Position numbers and translations under genes: made by a program. This document shows positions 10,392 through 20,172 of a stretch of DNA of 64,000 bases, piece after piece. The notes under the pieces were generated by a model. It did not search any database and had not been told where the DNA came from. It saw nothing but the letters and a program-made list of their open reading frames with translations. The stretch's first letter is position 1. Every line of letters starts with the position of its first letter. Source of the DNA: Nocardiopsis suaedae (GTDB lineage Bacteria > Actinomycetota > Actinomycetes > Streptosporangiales > Streptosporangiaceae); assembly GCF_027706745.1 (NCBI RefSeq), contig NZ_JAQFWP010000010.1, positions 1 to 64,000 of the forward strand. Direction: 5' to 3'.

Positions 10392-11285
10392 TCAGGCCAG
10401 CGACGCGGCCTCGGGGGTGGTGAAGCCGTGCGGTGGGAGGTCGGCGCCGCCCACGGCGCGGGCGACCTCCCCGGGCCCGCTCCACCCGCCGGAGGCGTCC
10501 GCGCGCAGCACGGGGCCGATCTCGGGGGGCCGGAGCACCCCGATGACGCCGCCGTGCACGAGGAACACCTGGCCGGTGACGCCGGCGGCGGCGGGCGAGG
10601 CGAGGTAGGCGACGAGGGGGGAGACGTGGTCGGGCGCCAGCGGGTCGGGGCCGTCCTGCGGGGGCGGGCCGAACACCTCGGCGGTCATGGCGGTGCGGGC
10701 GCGCGGGCAGATGGCGTTGGCGGTGGCGCCGTAGCGGCGCAGGGCCTGGGCGGTGGCCGTGGTCAGGGCGGCGATGCCGGCTTTGGCGGCGGCGTAGTTG
10801 GGCTGGCCGGGGGAGCCGAGGAGGAACGCCTCGGAGGCGGTGTTGACGATGCGGCCGTGGACGGGGCCGCCCTCGCGCTTGGAGCGGGCGCGCCAGTGCG
10901 CGGCGGCGGCGCGGGAGGCGAGGAAGTGGCCGCGCAGGTGGGTGCGGACGACGGCGTCCCAGTCGGCCTCGTCCATGTTGAACAGCATCCGGTCGCGGAC
11001 CACCCCGGCGTTGTTGACCAGCACGTCCAGGCGGCCGTAGTGCTCTTCGGCGGCGGAGAGGAGGCGTCGGCCGGCGCCGTCGGCGGCGGCGTCGCCGCCG
11101 AGGGCGCGGGCGGTGCCGCCGCGGTCGCGGATCTCGGCGGCGACCTCGTCGGCGCCCTGCAGGTCGGCCACGAGGACGCGGGCGCCGCCGTCGGCGAGGG
11201 CCAGGGCGTGGGCCCGGCCGAGGCCGCGCCCGGCGCCGGTGACGGCGGCGGCGAGGCCGTCCAGGCGCACGTTCGGCTCATCCAT
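10392..11285 (-). CDS. Short-chain dehydrogenase/reductase, steroid-catabolism type
   Basis: The 297-residue SDR has the cofactor motif TGAGRGLG, the NNAG motif, serine in NTASEAF and the catalytic pair in NYAAAKAG. The stretch ANAICPRARTAMT resembles SDRs found in mycobacterial cholesterol loci (Rv3548c type), where they act on hydroxyacyl-CoA or hydroxysteroid intermediates. Its start overlaps the end of the metallo-hydrolase gene by 8 nt, and GGAGGAG lies 5 nt before the ATG. The two genes form one unit downstream of a 20-bp palindrome and next to the chsE-chsH-ltp2 operon, so a role in side-chain oxidation is likely. The exact substrate is not determined. Confidence 0.85.
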   Translation of the reverse strand: MDEPNVRLDGLAAAVTGAGRGLGRAHALALADGGARVLVADLQGADEVAAEIRDRGGTARALGGDAAADGAGRRLLSAAEEHYGRLDVLVNNAGVVRDRMLFNMDEADWDAVVRTHLRGHFLASRAAAAHWRARSKREGGPVHGRIVNTASEAFLLGSPGQPNYAAAKAGIAALTTATAQALRRYGATANAICPRARTAMTAEVFGPPPQDGPDPLAPDHVSPLVAYLASPAAAGVTGQVFLVHGGVIGVLRPPEIGPVLRADASGGWSGPGEVARAVGGADLPPHGFTTPEAASLA

Positions 11286-12330
11286 GTGCTCTCCTCCAGG
11301 TCAGGACCTCGGGCGGGGGGCCGGTCGAGGGCGCCGTCCGCACGGCGAGGCCGCGGCGTTCCAGCACCCGCAGGTGTGCGGCGGTCTCGGAGGCGGCCAG
11401 GCGGCGCTGGACCACGCCCATCGCCTCCCAGCCGCGGCTCCAGGGCAGCGCGGCGCACAGCTCCCACAGGGTGGCCGGGCCGCGCTGCAGGGCGGCGGCG
11501 AGCAGGTCGAGGCGTTCGGCGTGGTGGGCGGCGATGGCGGCGGCGCGTTCGGCCAGGCCGGTGAAGCGGGCCTCGTGGGCGGGCAGGGCCTCGACGTCGG
11601 CGGGGGCGGTGTCGGTGATCTGGGCCAGGGAGTCGAGGAAGGCGCCGAGCGGGTCGCGGTCGTCGGGGCGCCCGCCGGGCAGGGTGAAGGGGTACAGGCC
11701 GATGTGCGGGGTGATGCGGGGCAGCACGTGGTCGCCGGTGAACAGGCGGTCGGCGTCCTCCAGGTGGAGGCAGATGTGGCCGGGGGAGTGGCCGGGGGTC
11801 CACACGGTGCGCAGCTTGCGGCCGGGGACGTCGACGAGTTCGCCGTGGGCCAGCTCGGTGTCGGGGGCGGCGGGCGGGTCGAGCCGGGGGTCGGTGCGCG
11901 CGTAGGCGGCGACCTGGTCTTCGGGGGCCCCGGCGAGGCGGAGCTGGGCGGTCTCCAGGCCCGACCCGTCGCCGACCCCGGCCTCGGCGACGAAGCGGAG
12001 CATCTCGGCGTCGGCGTGGTGCATGGCGATCCAGCAGCCGGAGGCGGCGCGCACCCGCCCGGCGAGCCCGGCGTGGTCGGGGTGGAAGTGGGTGACGACG
12101 ACGCCGTGCACGTCGGCGGGGTCGGACCCGGCGGCGCGCAGCCCGTCGGCCAGCGCGGCCCAGGAGTCCTCGTGCTCCCATCCGGCGTCGACGAGGACGG
12201 GGCCGCGGGGGGTCTCCAGGGCGTAGACGAGGGTGTAGCCGAGCGGATTGCCGGGGATCGGCACGGGGATGGACCAGACCCCGCCGCCGAGGTCTTCGAC
12301 GGGCGGCAGCTCGCGGGGGAGGGGGCGCAT
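11278..12330 (-). CDS. MBL-fold metallo-hydrolase
   Basis: The 350-residue protein has the metal-binding motif THFHPDHAG (HxHxDH), a second metal histidine in TPGHSPGHICLH and the aspartate in LFTGDHVLP. This defines a two-metal beta-lactamase-fold hydrolase. A C-terminal helical region of about 90 residues (winged-helix-like) follows, as in LACTB2-type proteins. AAAGG stands about 8 nt before the ATG. The gene starts 14 bp after a perfect 20-bp palindrome (12344-12363) and is coupled to the SDR. In this setting it may cleave a thioester or lactone in steroid breakdown, but the family also acts on RNA and small esters, so the function is open. Confidence 0.85.
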   Translation of the reverse strand: MRPLPRELPPVEDLGGGVWSIPVPIPGNPLGYTLVYALETPRGPVLVDAGWEHEDSWAALADGLRAAGSDPADVHGVVVTHFHPDHAGLAGRVRAASGCWIAMHHADAEMLRFVAEAGVGDGSGLETAQLRLAGAPEDQVAAYARTDPRLDPPAAPDTELAHGELVDVPGRKLRTVWTPGHSPGHICLHLEDADRLFTGDHVLPRITPHIGLYPFTLPGGRPDDRDPLGAFLDSLAQITDTAPADVEALPAHEARFTGLAERAAAIAAHHAERLDLLAAALQRGPATLWELCAALPWSRGWEAMGVVQRRLAASETAAHLRVLERRGLAVRTAPSTGPPPEVLTWRRAHG

Positions 12331-12343
12331 GCGTCGCCTTTCG

Positions 12344-12363
12344 TAGAACCGAATTCGGTTCTA
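12344..12363. promoter_or_regulatory. Perfect 20-bp palindrome, operator-like
   Basis: TAGAACCGAATTCGGTTCTA is identical on both strands. It contains the same TAGAAC/GTTCTA half-sites seen at the KstR-like sites of this locus, but spaced by 8 bp rather than 2. It overlaps the ltp2 stop codon and lies 14 bp before the MBL-hydrolase ATG, a position suited to controlling the hydrolase-SDR pair. Confidence 0.7.
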
Positions 12364-13548
12364 ACTGTAGGCGCCGAGCACCAGGCCGCTCGTGGGCACC
12401 CCCGTGCCCGCGGTGACCAGGACGTGCCCGGCCCCGGGGACCTGGTTGGCGGCGGTGCCGCGGAGCTGGCGGACGGCCTCGGCGATGCCGTTCATCCCGT
12501 GGATGTAGGCCTCGCCGAGCTGGCCGCCGTGCGGGTTGACCGGCAGGTCGCCGCCGGGGCCGATGCGGCCGTCGGCGACGAGGGCGGGCGCCTGCCCGCG
12601 CTTGCAGTAGCCCAGCGCCTCCAGCTGCATGAGGACGTAGGGGGTGAAGTGGTCGTAGAGGATCGCCGCGTCCATGTCCCCGGGGCCCAGACCGCTGTCG
12701 GCCCACAGGCGCTCGGCGACGGCGGCCATCTCGGGCAGGGCGGCGATGTCGTCGCGGTAGAAGTCGACCATGGTCAGCTGCCCGGCGCCGGACCCCTGGG
12801 CGGCGGCCTCGATGACGGCGGGGGGCCGGGGCAGGGAGCGGGCGCGCCGGGCGCCGACGACCACGAGCGCGACGCCGCCGTCGCTCTCCTGGCAGCAGTC
12901 GAGCAGCCGCAGCGGTTCGGCGACCCACCGGGAGGCCTGGTGCTCCTCCAGGGTGATGGGGCGGCGGTGGAACCAGGCGCGGGGGTTGGTGGCGGCGTTG
13001 GCGCGCATCTGGACGGCGACCCGGCCGAAGTCCTCGCCGGTGGCGCCGTACTCGTGCATGTAGCGGCGGGCGGGCAGCGCCGCCCAGGCGGCGGGGGTGG
13101 CCAGCCCGGCGGGCACGTGCCAGCCCAGCTCCAGGGCCTGAGAAGCGGGGGCGCCGGTGGGGGCGCCGTCCTGGGGCACGGCGCGCCCGTAGCGGCGCCC
13201 GCTGCGCTCGTTGAAGGCCCGGTAGACCAGGACGACGTCGGCGGTGCCGGAGGCGGCGGCCATGGCGGCCTGGGCGACGGCGCCGCAGGCGGCGCCGCCG
13301 CCGTAGGGGACGCGGGTGAAGAAGCGCAGCGCCCCGGCGCCGATCTCGCGGGCGAGCGCGATCTCGGAGGTGGGGTCCATGGTGAAGGTGGCCATGCCGT
13401 CCACCTCCTCGGGGGAGATCCCGGCGTCGGCGAGGGCGTCGAGGGCCGCGTCGGCGGCCAGGCGGGTCTCGCTGCGCCCGGAGTCCTTGGAGAACCCGGT
13501 GGCGCCGATCCCGGCGATCACCGCCTTCGTCGCGGTCACGGCCTTCAT
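12361..13548 (-). CDS. ltp2: Steroid side-chain aldolase, thiolase-fold (Ltp2)
   Basis: The 395-residue protein closely follows the mycobacterial Ltp2 (Rv3540c) pattern: VIAGIGATGFSKDSGRSETRLA at the start (IGATGFSKDSG core), YGGGAACG, VYRAFNERSG, RYMHEYGAT, RLLDCCQESDG, LYDHFTPYVL and HGGQLGEAYIHGMNG. Ltp2 performs the retro-aldol step that removes the last side-chain piece from the 17-hydroxy steroid CoA thioester, releasing propionyl-CoA and a 17-ketosteroid, and works in complex with the DUF35 part of ChsH2. Its ATG at 13548 overlaps the TGA of the chsH fusion gene and GGAGG precedes it, so translation is coupled. Its stop lies inside the palindrome at 12344-12363. Confidence 0.93.
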   Translation of the reverse strand: MKAVTATKAVIAGIGATGFSKDSGRSETRLAADAALDALADAGISPEEVDGMATFTMDPTSEIALAREIGAGALRFFTRVPYGGGAACGAVAQAAMAAASGTADVVLVYRAFNERSGRRYGRAVPQDGAPTGAPASQALELGWHVPAGLATPAAWAALPARRYMHEYGATGEDFGRVAVQMRANAATNPRAWFHRRPITLEEHQASRWVAEPLRLLDCCQESDGGVALVVVGARRARSLPRPPAVIEAAAQGSGAGQLTMVDFYRDDIAALPEMAAVAERLWADSGLGPGDMDAAILYDHFTPYVLMQLEALGYCKRGQAPALVADGRIGPGGDLPVNPHGGQLGEAYIHGMNGIAEAVRQLRGTAANQVPGAGHVLVTAGTGVPTSGLVLGAYS

Positions 13549-14801
13549 CGGTCCTCCAGGTCGACGGTGGCGGTGACGTGCCGTCCCAGTGAGGTGGTGC
13601 CGCGCACGTCGACGCGGCCCTCGCGGGGGCGGTCCGTTCCGGTGAGCACGAGGGTGTCCCCGGCGTGGGCGGGGGCGCCCAGGCGCACGGCGATGCGGCG
13701 CACCCGGGCGCCGGGGCGGTGCGCGGTGGCGTAGCGCTGCACGAGGCCCTGGGTGGTGAGGATGTTGAGGAAGACGTCGCGCGCCCCTTGGGCGCGGGCG
13801 CGGTCGGGATCGTGGTGCACGGGGGTGAAGTCGCGGGTGGCCAGGGCCTGGGCGGTGACGGAGGTGCGGGTCAGTTCCAGCTCCAGGGCGGGCAGGGGGA
13901 CCTGGTCGGCGGGGCGCCACCGGGGCGGCTCGGCGCCGCCGCGGGCGAAGTCGGCCCGGACGGGCATGCCCACGCGCACGTCGGCGGGGTCGGCGCCGGT
14001 GACGGCGCCGACGACGCGCACCCCTTCGGGCAGGTCGACCAGGGCGACGGCGAAGGGGGCGGTGCGCCCGGGGACCGGCGGGTGGTGGTGGACGGTGTAG
14101 CTGTGCACGGTGCCCTCGCCGGAGGCCGTGACGTGGTCGGCGGCGGCCGAGCGGCACGCGGGGCACAGGGGGCCGGGCGGGTGGCGCAGGGTGCCGCAGT
14201 CGGCGCAGCGGCGGATGCGCAGCTCCCCGGCGGCGGCGCCGTCCCAGAAGAAGGCGGTGTCGGCGGTGCGGGGGGGGGGCGGGGGCGGCGCTTCGGGGGT
14301 GCCTCCGGGGGCACTGCCGGGGGCACGGGGTTCGGGGCGGGTCGCCGGGTCGAACTTGAGCACCCGGAACGTCATGGTGCCGACGCGTTCTTCGCCGCAG
14401 TACCAGGTGGTGTCCCAGGTGAGGAAGTAGCCCCGGCCCATGGCGGTGGACTTGGGGCCGCGCAGGGAGGAGAACCGGGTGGCGGCGCGCGGGGTCTCGC
14501 CCATGCGCAGGGGGCGGTCGTAGGCCTGGGTGCAGTCGGTGGCGACCACGCCGGTGCAGCCGCGGGCGTCGAGCCCGGCCAGCACCGTGTCGACGGCCGA
14601 GGGGCGGGGGCCGCCGTCGGGGCCGGGCATGGTCCACACCTGCAGCATGGCGGGCGGGGCCAGGCCCTCGTCGAGGTAGGGGGCGGCGGTGTCGCCCATG
14701 GCCTGCAGCCAGTGCCGGACCATGGCCGCGTTGACGGGGTCGGGGGCGGTGCCGCCGTCGACCTCTCCGCGGGCGCGGGCGGCGTCGGCGAGATCCTCCA
14801 T
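13545..14801 (-). CDS. Fused steroid enoyl-CoA hydratase ChsH2-ChsH1
   Basis: The 418-residue protein joins two proteins that are separate in mycobacteria. Residues 1-150 resemble the MaoC-like domain of ChsH2. Residues 180-295 are its DUF35 part with zinc cysteines C199, C202, C213 and C216. Residues 300-418 match ChsH1, including ALATRDFTPVHHD with the catalytic pair D324 and H329, and DVFLNILTTQGLVQRY. A Pro-rich linker (about 153-178) separates the first two. It would hydrate the C22 enoyl-CoA of the steroid side chain, while DUF35 docks Ltp2, the next gene. GAGGAG precedes the ATG. The uninterrupted frame rules out a simple annotation artefact within this sequence. Confidence 0.92.
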   Translation of the reverse strand: MEDLADAARARGEVDGGTAPDPVNAAMVRHWLQAMGDTAAPYLDEGLAPPAMLQVWTMPGPDGGPRPSAVDTVLAGLDARGCTGVVATDCTQAYDRPLRMGETPRAATRFSSLRGPKSTAMGRGYFLTWDTTWYCGEERVGTMTFRVLKFDPATRPEPRAPGSAPGGTPEAPPPPPPRTADTAFFWDGAAAGELRIRRCADCGTLRHPPGPLCPACRSAAADHVTASGEGTVHSYTVHHHPPVPGRTAPFAVALVDLPEGVRVVGAVTGADPADVRVGMPVRADFARGGAEPPRWRPADQVPLPALELELTRTSVTAQALATRDFTPVHHDPDRARAQGARDVFLNILTTQGLVQRYATAHRPGARVRRIAVRLGAPAHAGDTLVLTGTDRPREGRVDVRGTTSLGRHVTATVDLEDR

Positions 14802-14811
14802 GGGGCTCCTC

Positions 14812-15981
14812 TCAGCGGGGGGCGCGCGGCAGGCCCAGCCCGAGCGTGGCGATGAGCTCGCGCTGCACCTCGTTGACGCCGCCGCCGAAGGTCATCACCA
14901 GCGCCCCCTTGGCGGCGGTGTCCATGCGCTCCAGCAGGCCGGCGGTGGCGGGGTCGGCGGGGTCGCCGAAGCGGGCGGCGGTCTCGGCGATGATCCGGGG
15001 GACCTCCTGCAGCCGTTCGCCGGCGTAGACCTTGTTGGCCGAGGCGTCGGGGGCGCCGATCCACCCGCTGCCGTCGCCCGCGGCGACCTGCCAGTTGAGC
15101 AGTTCGTTGACGCGCAGGTAGGCGTGGACGCGGCCGAGGGCGCGGCGGACCTCGGGGAGTTGGGCCGGGGGGCGGCCGCCGGGGCCGCGGGCGGTGTGGG
15201 CCCACTCCAGGAACCGGTCGAAGAGGCGGCCGATGGTGCCGGAGGGCCCCAGGGTGAGGCGTTCGTGGTTGAGCTGCTCGGTGATGATGCCCCAGCCCTC
15301 GCCCTCGCCGCCGACGCGGCGGCCGGAGGGGACGCGCACGCCGTCGTAGTGGGTGGCGTTGGTGTGGTGGTGGCCGTCGGCGGTGGTGATGGGGGTCCAG
15401 GAGAAGCCGGGGTCGGCGGTGTCGGCGATGAGCAGGGTGATGCCTTCGTGCCGGGAGCCGGGCGGGCCGGTGCGGGCGGCGAGCCAGATGTGGTCGGCGA
15501 AGTGCGCCCCGGAGGTGTAGAGCTTGGAGCCGTGGACGGTGTAGCCCCCGGCGCCGTCGGGGGCGGCGGTGGTGCGCAGGGCGGCCAGGTCGGTCCCGGC
15601 CTCGGGCTCGGTGTAGCCGATGGCGAAGTGCAGCTCCCCGGCGAGGAGGGGGGGCAGGAATTTCGCGCGCTGGCCGGGGGTGCCGCGGCGGAGGACGACC
15701 GGGGCGACGGTCTGCAGGGTGACCAGCGGGTAGGGGACTCCGGCGCGGGAGGCCTCGTTGACGAACACCTGCTGTTCGACGGGGCCCAGACCACGTCCGC
15801 CGTACTCTTCGGGCCAGCCGAGGGCGAGCATGCCGTCGGCGCCCAGGCGGCGCACCACCCGCTTGTACACCTCGGGTTCGTCGGCGGCGCGGTCGCGCTC
15901 GTCGGGGGGCACGCTGCGGGCGAAGTAGGCGCGCAGTTCGTCGCGGAGCCGTTTCTGGTCGTCGGTGAGGTCGATGAACAC
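14812..15981 (-). CDS. chsE2: Steroid acyl-CoA dehydrogenase subunit ChsE2 (FadE29-like)
   Basis: The 389-residue flavoprotein matches the FadE29 (Rv3543c) pattern: FIDLTDDQKRL at the N-terminus, GWPEEYGGRGLGPVEQQVFVNEA, HFAIGYTEPEAGTDLAALRTT in the FAD-binding core, TNATHYDGVRVP, and GGGVNEVQRELIA near the end. ChsE1 and ChsE2 form an alpha2beta2 dehydrogenase that introduces the C20-C22 double bond into the three-carbon steroid side chain CoA ester. GTG at 15981 is preceded by AGGAG. It starts 18 nt after chsE1 and ends 10 nt before the fused hydratase gene, so all four belong to one operon. Confidence 0.92.
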   Translation of the reverse strand: MFIDLTDDQKRLRDELRAYFARSVPPDERDRAADEPEVYKRVVRRLGADGMLALGWPEEYGGRGLGPVEQQVFVNEASRAGVPYPLVTLQTVAPVVLRRGTPGQRAKFLPPLLAGELHFAIGYTEPEAGTDLAALRTTAAPDGAGGYTVHGSKLYTSGAHFADHIWLAARTGPPGSRHEGITLLIADTADPGFSWTPITTADGHHHTNATHYDGVRVPSGRRVGGEGEGWGIITEQLNHERLTLGPSGTIGRLFDRFLEWAHTARGPGGRPPAQLPEVRRALGRVHAYLRVNELLNWQVAAGDGSGWIGAPDASANKVYAGERLQEVPRIIAETAARFGDPADPATAGLLERMDTAAKGALVMTFGGGVNEVQRELIATLGLGLPRAPR

Positions 15982-15999: not shown

Positions 16000-16971
16000 C
16001 TAGGCGCAGGCCAGGTCGCCGAGGGCGGCCAGGCGCGCCTCGGGGCCGCCGAGGGCGGCCGATGCCCATTTGGCGGTGGCGAAGTGCCGGTGCAGGGGGT
16101 AGGAGGCGTCGACACCCAGGCCGCCGTGCAGGTGCTGGGCGGCGTAAAGGGCGTCCAGGGCGTCCTCGGTGGCGAGCAGGGCGGCCGATTCGAGGACGGG
16201 GGCGGCGTCGGGGTCGCCGCGGTCGAGCCGCCAGGCCCCGGCGAGCAGGGCGGCGTCCAGGGCGCGGGAGGCGATGGAGATGTCGGCGACGCGCATGGTG
16301 ACGGCCTGCAGTTGCGCCAGGGGGCGGCCGAACTGGTGCCGGGTGCGCACGTGTGCGCAGGTCAGGTCGAGGGCGGCGCGCAGGGCCCCGGAGGCGGTGG
16401 CGATGAGCGCGGTCAGGGTGCACAGGTGCAGGGTGCGGGCGGCGGCAGCGCCGCCGGGGAGGGGTTCGGCGCGCACGCCGTCCAGCCCGGCCCGGAAGGC
16501 GGGGATGCGGGCGCCGGTGTGCTGGGGGGCCAGGGTGAGGCCGTCGGCGCCGGCGGGCACCCGGGCGACGGCGGGGCCGTCGGGGGTGCGCACGGGCAGG
16601 AGCAGGGTGGCGGCCTCGTCGGCGTAGGGGATCCCGGCGGCGGCGCCGTCGACGCGCAGGGCTCCGGTCCCGTCGGGGCGGGCGTCGGCGCCGCGTGGGC
16701 CGGATGCGGGGACGGGGGCGGTGGCCGGGGCGCCGGCGTCGGCCGGGTCCAGCAGCGGGTCGAGGGCCAGGGCGGGCACCAGGGGCGCGGGCGCGGCGCG
16801 GGCGGCGGCCTCGCGCAGGACCAGGGCGGCGCCGACGGCGCCCTGCCGTGCGGTGGTGATGCCGGTGTCGGCCAGTGCGCGGCGCAGGCGGCGGGGGTCG
16901 TCCTCGCGGTCGAGGACCTCGGCGGCCAGGGCGCGCAGGTCCTCCTGGGACTCGTCGGGGGAGAAGTCCAC
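16000..16971 (-). CDS. chsE1: Steroid acyl-CoA dehydrogenase subunit ChsE1 (FadE28-like)
   Basis: The 323-residue protein is the short partner subunit of a heteromeric acyl-CoA dehydrogenase. It has MDFSPDESQEDL at the start, RTRHQFGRPLAQLQAV, IASRALDAALLAGAWRL and the HLHGGLGVDASYPLHRH motif of FadE28 (Rv3544c). The N-terminal and middle domains are degenerate and Ala/Pro-rich compared with ordinary dehydrogenases, as in that family. The GTG start at 16971 has GAGGAGG 4 nt before it. It is the first gene of the operon; an operator-like palindrome at 16986-17007 lies directly upstream, next to the ribosome binding site, which points to repression by the divergent KstR-like regulator. Confidence 0.9.
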   Translation of the reverse strand: MDFSPDESQEDLRALAAEVLDREDDPRRLRRALADTGITTARQGAVGAALVLREAAARAAPAPLVPALALDPLLDPADAGAPATAPVPASGPRGADARPDGTGALRVDGAAAGIPYADEAATLLLPVRTPDGPAVARVPAGADGLTLAPQHTGARIPAFRAGLDGVRAEPLPGGAAAARTLHLCTLTALIATASGALRAALDLTCAHVRTRHQFGRPLAQLQAVTMRVADISIASRALDAALLAGAWRLDRGDPDAAPVLESAALLATEDALDALYAAQHLHGGLGVDASYPLHRHFATAKWASAALGGPEARLAALGDLACA

Positions 16972-16985
16972 GGGTCCTCCTCGAA

Positions 16986-17007
16986 AATCTAGAACAGATT
17001 CTAGATT
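16986..17007. promoter_or_regulatory. KstR-like operator before chsE1
   Basis: AATCTAGAA and TTCTAGATT form a perfect inverted repeat around CAGA. The inner 14 bases TAGAACAGATTCTA fit the KstR consensus TnnAACnnGTTnnA with one mismatch (A for G). It lies 15 bp upstream of the chsE1 GTG, so bound repressor would block transcription of the operon. Confidence 0.75.

Positions 17008-17163: not shown

Positions 17164-20172
<3,009 letters not shown>

Follow-up and report, generated by a model that had tools for sequence, protein, structure and literature searches.

The 64,000-nucleotide stretch of Nocardiopsis suaedae DNA analyzed here (contig NZ_JAQFWP010000010.1, positions 1 to 64,000; hereafter the window) contains a minus-strand gene that probably encodes a single-chain version of the igr-type ChsH1-ChsH2 enoyl-CoA hydratase, with a DUF35 domain lying between its two MaoC domains. 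Judging from sequence and domain matches, we assign this reading a probability of about 0.78. The fusion of ChsH2 and ChsH1 is genuine and recurrent, and it is conserved across the genus. The gene and its parts are as follows.

13545..14801, minus strand: fused ChsH2-DUF35-ChsH1 gene, a single open reading frame (ORF) of 418 amino acids with an ATG start
14346..14744, minus strand: N-terminal MaoC domain, ChsH2-like, residues 20–152 (Pfam and PDB matches)
13908..14264, minus strand: DUF35, composed of a zinc ribbon and an OB fold, residues 180–298 (Pfam zf-ChsH2 and OB_ChsH2_C; PDB 6ok1)
14154..14207, minus strand: zinc cysteines C199, C202, C213, and C216, read from the translation
13548..13895, minus strand: C-terminal MaoC domain, ChsH1-like, residues 303–418 (Pfam and PDB matches)
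13815..13832, minus strand: catalytic dyad D324 and H329

The 418-amino acid protein is matched by the Pfam families FAS1_DH_region (residues 20–134), zf-ChsH2 (186–219), OB_ChsH2_C (224–285), and MaoC_dehydratas (299–387). In a search against PDB sequences, residues 9–157 match ChsH2 of 4wnb and 4w78 (E 3e-28), residues 178–298 match the ChsH2-DUF35 of T. curvata (6ok1; E 2e-29), and residues 303–416 match ChsH1 of 4wnb and 4w78 (E 3e-25); the molecule names of 4w78 are swapped. The end of DUF35 (R296-P297-A298) passes through D-Q-V-P into ChsH1, with hardly any linker at this junction. The ORF and these matches bear out a sequence-only reading of the stretch, which had described one 418-residue frame in the order MaoC, DUF35, MaoC. 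The zinc cysteines, D324, and H329 are located exactly where that reading had placed them; it had named no strand, which is the minus strand. A second match to ChsH1 or ChsH2 is absent from the same genome at E 0.001, and only two further DUF35 matches occur in it.

Conservation of the key residues was observed directly in an alignment of 42 of the fused loci, chosen for spread. D324 and H329 are present in all 42 proteins, and each zinc-cysteine position is cysteine in 41. The first MaoC domain keeps an aspartate (D37) and has a tyrosine (Y42) at the position of the catalytic histidine. Position 42 is Trp in 23 of the aligned proteins, Tyr in 15, Phe in one, Asp in one, a gap in two, and His in none, while position 37 is Asp in 38, His in two, Pro in one, and a gap in one. 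In the split enzyme, as described in PMC11321319, the dyad occurs only in ChsH1, and ChsH2, in which the catalytic histidine is replaced by tyrosine, holds the rings. The occurrence of the dyad only in the second MaoC domain of the fusion thus corresponds to the division of labor described for the split enzyme.

The pairing of the MaoC domains, the substrate, and the docking partner can be modeled on the split enzyme. The upstream acyl-CoA dehydrogenase pair would make the C17-C20 double bond. The inert first MaoC domain would then hold the ring system, and the last would supply the D324/H329 dyad for the addition of water across this double bond. DUF35, placed between the MaoC domains, is predicted to dock on the aldolase Ltp2, which would remove the hydrated product by retro-aldol cleavage. 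The two MaoC domains may pair within one chain, or may be swapped between the two chains of a dimer. Most likely, the fusion simplifies assembly and does not change the chemistry.

All six genomes of the genus carry the fusion; a search of the five other assemblies gave one full-length, stop-free match in each. Of the 200 genomes in a family sample, 142 gave a match at E 1e-15, and 116 of these 142 were examined at the locus level for in-frame stops. The two genes are fused in 45 of the 116 genomes (14 genera), adjacent yet separate in 52 (16 genera), and apart in 18 (9 genera). One locus was ended by a contig end, two genomes have a locus without DUF35 (one of them also counted as apart), and one further genome carries both split types. 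The group of 97 fused or adjacent loci is defined by arrangement, and seven of them (three fused and four split) have a ChsH2 part nearer that of T. curvata. Named genera with the fusion are Nocardiopsis, Actinomadura, Actinocorallia, Actinoallomurus, Actinoplanes, and one metagenome-assembled genome (MAG) labeled Gordonia; those with split genes include Nonomuraea, Streptosporangium, Planobispora, Sphaerisporangium, Microbispora, and Planotetraspora. The split loci of genera g37 and g16 are of the T. curvata type. Fused loci also occur outside the family, among the 394 genomes of a class sample and in two Myxococcota MAGs. Among the best 80 of 149 loci, which were found with query-derived patterns and thus lean to close relatives (the tree and the linker and junction results draw on them, the family rates do not), the closest named relative is from Nocardiopsis endophytica (90%). 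Counting fusions by match pieces was rejected as a method; G117, G094, G056, G175, G173, G054, G093, and G052 are fused with long linkers. Eight records of a plasmid collection matched, none with an annotated fusion. Rather than a singular event, the fusion is common and recurrent. As to fused forms being the described norm in the order, they are indeed common in the family, but no description of them was found in the literature searched.

A tree was calculated from 47 representatives (30 fused and 17 split), obtained by thinning 122 of 162 rows, with T. curvata-type loci left out. The fused or split label is observed to change six times on this tree, and well-supported branches require at least five of these changes. 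In none of 200 bootstrap trees do all fused forms lie on one side of a branch. A single clade of all fused forms is rejected (p 9e-9), while a single clade of Nocardiopsis-type and Actinomadura-type fusions is not (p 0.26), so these two types may share one origin; the tree does not distinguish gains from losses. A start codon of the ChsH1 frame overlaps the stop codon of ChsH2 (NTGA) in 102 of the 120 split adjacent loci (83 of 98 when identical DNA is removed), and therefore a single small indel is enough to fuse the two frames. (In the totals of 120 split adjacent and 91 fused loci, the same locus from two collections is counted twice.) The most likely origin of the fusion is the joining of two adjacent, overlapping genes. 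At one locus (L120, in G486), chsH2 and chsH1 are in the same frame and only one TGA parts them; a GTG follows two codons later. By BLAST boundaries, the junction segments of the fused forms are 1 to 66 residues long, and some of them include part of the DUF35 end. In loci L081, L153, and L185, the DUF35-ChsH1 linkers are made of short repeats (AQNSAAG-, TESAP-, and TEPP-like). Loop length ahead of APPAM in the first MaoC domain was rejected as a correlate of fusion, short and long loops occurring in both groups (by a crude pattern that failed to match 39 of 231 loci).

The fused gene is seen in the window among the following genes and sites.

12361..13548, minus strand: ltp2, the aldolase partner (NF005892/PRK07855, 619 bits, cut-off 469)
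14812..15981, minus strand: acyl-CoA dehydrogenase, ChsE2/FadE29-like (Pfam Acyl-CoA_dh_N, _M, and _1)
16000..16971, minus strand: acyl-CoA dehydrogenase-like, ChsE1/FadE28-like (Pfam Acyl-CoA_dh_1 only)
11278..12330, minus strand: MBL-fold hydrolase, downstream of ltp2 (profile matches)
10392..11285, minus strand: short-chain dehydrogenase (SDR; profile matches)
17164..17769, plus strand: TetR regulator, KstR-related (128 bits, under the 280-bit equivalog cut-off)
17792..18904, plus strand: steroid 3-ketoacyl-CoA thiolase, FadA5-like (NF005889/PRK07850, 564 bits, cut-off 515)
16990..17003, no strand: KstR-box-like palindrome TAGAACAGATTCTA, with one mismatch to TNNAACNNGTTNNA, which we take to be the KstR-box consensus
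17767..17780, no strand: KstR-box-like site TAGAACACGTTATA, with no mismatches to this presumed consensus

The order on the minus strand is ChsE1-like, ChsE2-like, fusion, ltp2, MBL-fold hydrolase, and SDR, with the stop codon of the fusion overlapping the ATG of ltp2 (ATGA). The KstR-related TetR gene and the FadA5-like thiolase gene are divergent from this operon. Naming of the ChsE2/FadE29- and ChsE1/FadE28-like proteins made use of what we take to be their sizes. The names were assigned from the gene order in PMC8708139. The next gene is ltp2 in all 91 fused loci and in 118 of the 120 split adjacent loci, and a relative of the gene at 14812–15981 is located just upstream in 80 of the 91 (two others lacking room) and 106 of the 120. 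Within 6-kb flanks, relatives of both the MBL-fold hydrolase and the SDR occur in three of three named Nocardiopsis loci, and a relative of the MBL-fold hydrolase occurs in two of 25 Nonomuraea loci. With the same presumed consensus, the window has six KstR-box-like sites of at most one mismatch versus 1.42 expected, and an upstream site of zero or one mismatch is found in 19 of 73 related, unthinned loci versus 1.4 by shuffling; the remaining 54 have no upstream site as good. Twenty ORFs were scanned of the ~50 predicted genes of the window, and none outside the operon is a steroid gene; they include parts of an ABC transporter, a penicillin-binding protein, SppA, GlgB, and NadA.

Several alternatives concern the fusion itself. 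For a sequencing or assembly error that deleted a stop codon, only the high GC content and a run of ten C in the first linker can be cited. This run, the only long homopolymer of the gene (14270–14279), is located in the proline-rich linker between MaoC and DUF35, off the ChsH2/ChsH1 junction, and is a likely slippage spot. The span that the sequence-only reading had singled out, residues 295 to 305, contains neither a stop nor a frameshift in this sequence. With the fusion present in six of six genomes of the genus and in 45 of the family sample, such an error is refuted for the genus, and its probability is negligible. It is also quite improbable that an internal start still yields free ChsH1, such that the enzyme would be partly or wholly two-chain. 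In-frame starts are available in the window gene (codon 279 is ATG, and codons 275 and 277 are GTG), and an in-frame NTG occurs near the junction in 75 of 91 fused loci (ATG in 28). However, ATG, GTG, and TTG are absent in frame between codons 279 and 328 of the window gene, M279 belongs to a G-M-P motif near the DUF35 end that is found in 6ok1 as well, and no Shine-Dalgarno-like run was seen by eye ahead of M279. Somewhat less remote, but still unlikely, is the possibility, raised by the sequence-only reading, that the fusion alters transfer of the intermediate to Ltp2; this would be a real gain in channeling or coupling. Both the repeated change of the split or fused state and the invariable position of ltp2 after the fused gene are in its favor. 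On the other side, the junction segments vary widely in length, and 43 of the 52 genomes with split adjacent genes have the same setting without the ring enzyme KshA (described below), yet are unfused. In Comamonas testosteroni TA441, the MaoC and DUF35 parts of ChsH2 retain both activities when expressed apart, and thus their covalent link is not strictly needed, with efficient removal depending on proper formation of each complex (PMC12502768). The flexible linkers of the related pair Shy-Sal were argued to speak against direct channeling, the case of ChsH1-ChsH2-Ltp2 being left open (PMC12329534). The argument from a fixed 1:1 stoichiometry adds little, as the split enzyme is already α2β2 (PMC12502768) and its genes mostly overlap.

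Some results weigh against the igr-type reading of the single chain. The MaoC_dehydratas match scores 25.1 bits, slightly below the 27-bit Pfam cut-off, and dN/dS by segment ranges from 0.22 to 1.07, values that are probably inflated by ~96% GC at third positions and are uninformative. KshA, sought as PF19298 (KshA_C), has no match in any of the six genomes of the genus (G000–G005) even at E 0.001, versus 307 bits in T. curvata and 293–296 bits in two class-level comparison genomes. A strong HsaC-type dioxygenase, sought as TIGR03213, was likewise not found in the genus (at most 77 bits, versus 345 in T. curvata and 323–328 in two class-level comparison genomes). These are compared as bit scores; the 366-bit cut-off of TIGR03213 is passed by none of 15 genomes, T. 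curvata included. The extradiol dioxygenase of the N. suaedae genome with the best match to TIGR03213 (68 bits) was rejected as HsaC, being HpaD. Because neither KshA nor a strong HsaC-type enzyme was found in the genus, the setting of full cholesterol catabolism is doubtful. In the family sample, the threshold for strong KshA (E 1e-80) was chosen after two groups had appeared, at ≥278 and ≤114 bits, the exceptions to the latter being partial matches accompanied by a full one in the same genome. Strong KshA occurs in 52 of the 200 genomes. It is present in 19 and absent from 26 of the genomes with fused genes, present in 9 and absent from 43 of those with split adjacent genes, and present in all 18 of those with the genes apart. 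Of the 97 genomes in which the genes are fused or adjacent, 69 gave no KshA above 270 bits, among them all six of the genus. Sorted by likeness of the ChsH2 part, 23 window-like loci are accompanied by KshA and 67 are not, versus 23 and two (G167 and G193), respectively, for T. curvata-like loci; in these two, the T. curvata-like ChsH2 (L171 and L234) is adjacent to chsH1. At least 90% completeness applies to 67 of the 69 genomes without KshA; the other two, G180 and G127, reach only 73 and 77% completeness, and KshA occurs in other genomes of their genus.

These counts are consistent with a stand-alone side-chain module, of the same fold and mechanism, whose substrate is not a steroid bound for complete degradation, an explanation that we regard as plausible but tentative. 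It would shorten the side chain of a sterol, a cholanoate, or another polycyclic compound with an isopropyl-type side chain, with the nucleus outside the 9,10-seco pathway, and it is compatible with a single-chain igr-type hydratase. Against it stand the KstR-like, FadA5-like, and Ltp2 neighbors, the presence of KshA in 28 of the 97 genomes, and the dioxygenases of G112 and G105 (217 and 296 bits, respectively, with TIGR03213), both KshA-less genomes with the fusion. A ring-opening enzyme or hydroxylase of divergent sequence may also have escaped, and KstD, HsaA, Cyp125, and acyl-CoA ligases were not searched for. It is plausible that actinomycetes of this family have a compact KstR-linked module that works without 9,10-seco ring degradation, either on a polycyclic substrate or with excretion of a 17-keto product. 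Besides Ltp2 and sometimes FadA5, the module would comprise the acyl-CoA dehydrogenase pair and a ChsH2-ChsH1 that is fused or encoded by overlapping genes. That ring enzymes were not found beside a conserved side-chain operon is less expected than the fusion itself.

Two loci bear on the role of DUF35. In G020 (L238; G020:C4:322000-338000), a 289-residue MaoC-MaoC frame begins at ~8518 of this locus, and in it a Pro/Ala linker joins the ChsH2 MaoC domain to a ChsH1 that has the dyad; DUF35 is absent, and ltp2 was not found in the surrounding 16 kb. In G120 (L239; G120:C10:430000-449000; ~10326-9349, minus strand), the body of DUF35 is absent, a stop lies between the two MaoC parts, and ltp2 was not found in the surrounding 19 kb. 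The dehydrogenase genes remain at both loci. Both genomes have KshA and a second hydratase-aldolase locus, with an Ltp2 at a T. curvata-type locus in each and one more Ltp2 in G120. Judging from relatives, DUF35 and ltp2 appear to have been lost at these loci. These are two cases only, but they are consistent with a function of DUF35 for Ltp2 and not for the hydratase, and they provide a natural experiment on its role. Together with the repeated split or fused change, the joint absence of DUF35 and Ltp2 provides evolutionary evidence on which contacts matter.

A ChsH2-ChsH1 fusion is not described in the available portions of PMC11321319, PMC12329534, PMC10398937, PMC12502768, PMC8708139, PMC7807495, PMC6678751, and PMC4810484; the papers on the T. 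curvata structure and the Ltp2 aldolase may mention one. A natural single-chain hydratase would be a handy construct for structural work and for steroid biocatalysis. If the ring enzymes are truly absent, a side-chain β-oxidation of steroid type is in use that genome surveys based on ring enzymes have missed. A 2016 survey of 9,10-seco degraders had KshA and HsaC among its criteria (PMC4810484), and therefore genomes with this operon in which KshA and HsaC are not found would not be counted; a side-chain-only module would be invisible to any survey of this kind.

Compared with ChsH1-ChsH2 of the igr operon (4w78 and 4wnb), the fusion has the same three domains, with one inert and one catalytic MaoC, and the same gene order, with adjacent ltp2 and two acyl-CoA dehydrogenase genes (igr Rv numbers in PMC8708139). 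It differs in being one chain instead of two, in having DUF35 with its four zinc cysteines internal rather than C-terminal as in ChsH2, and in occurring in a genus in which KshA was not found. The T. curvata Ltp2-ChsH2(DUF35) complex (6ok1) is alike in its DUF35 and type of Ltp2, but T. curvata ChsH2 is unfused and 38% identical to the fusion in the MaoC part, and chsH2 and chsH1 are ~1.1 kb apart. The order in Nocardioides simplex is chsE2-chsH2-casN-chsH1-ltp2 (PMC7807495). ChsH3, CasD, and CasQ, named in PMC11321319, similarly have two MaoC domains per polypeptide; unlike the fusion, they lack DUF35, and their substrates are C5 side chains. Shy of Proteobacteria combines DUF35 and a catalytic MaoC domain in one chain and has an aldolase partner, as does the fusion, but has a single MaoC domain, with DUF35 first, and forms a homodimer (PMC11321319).

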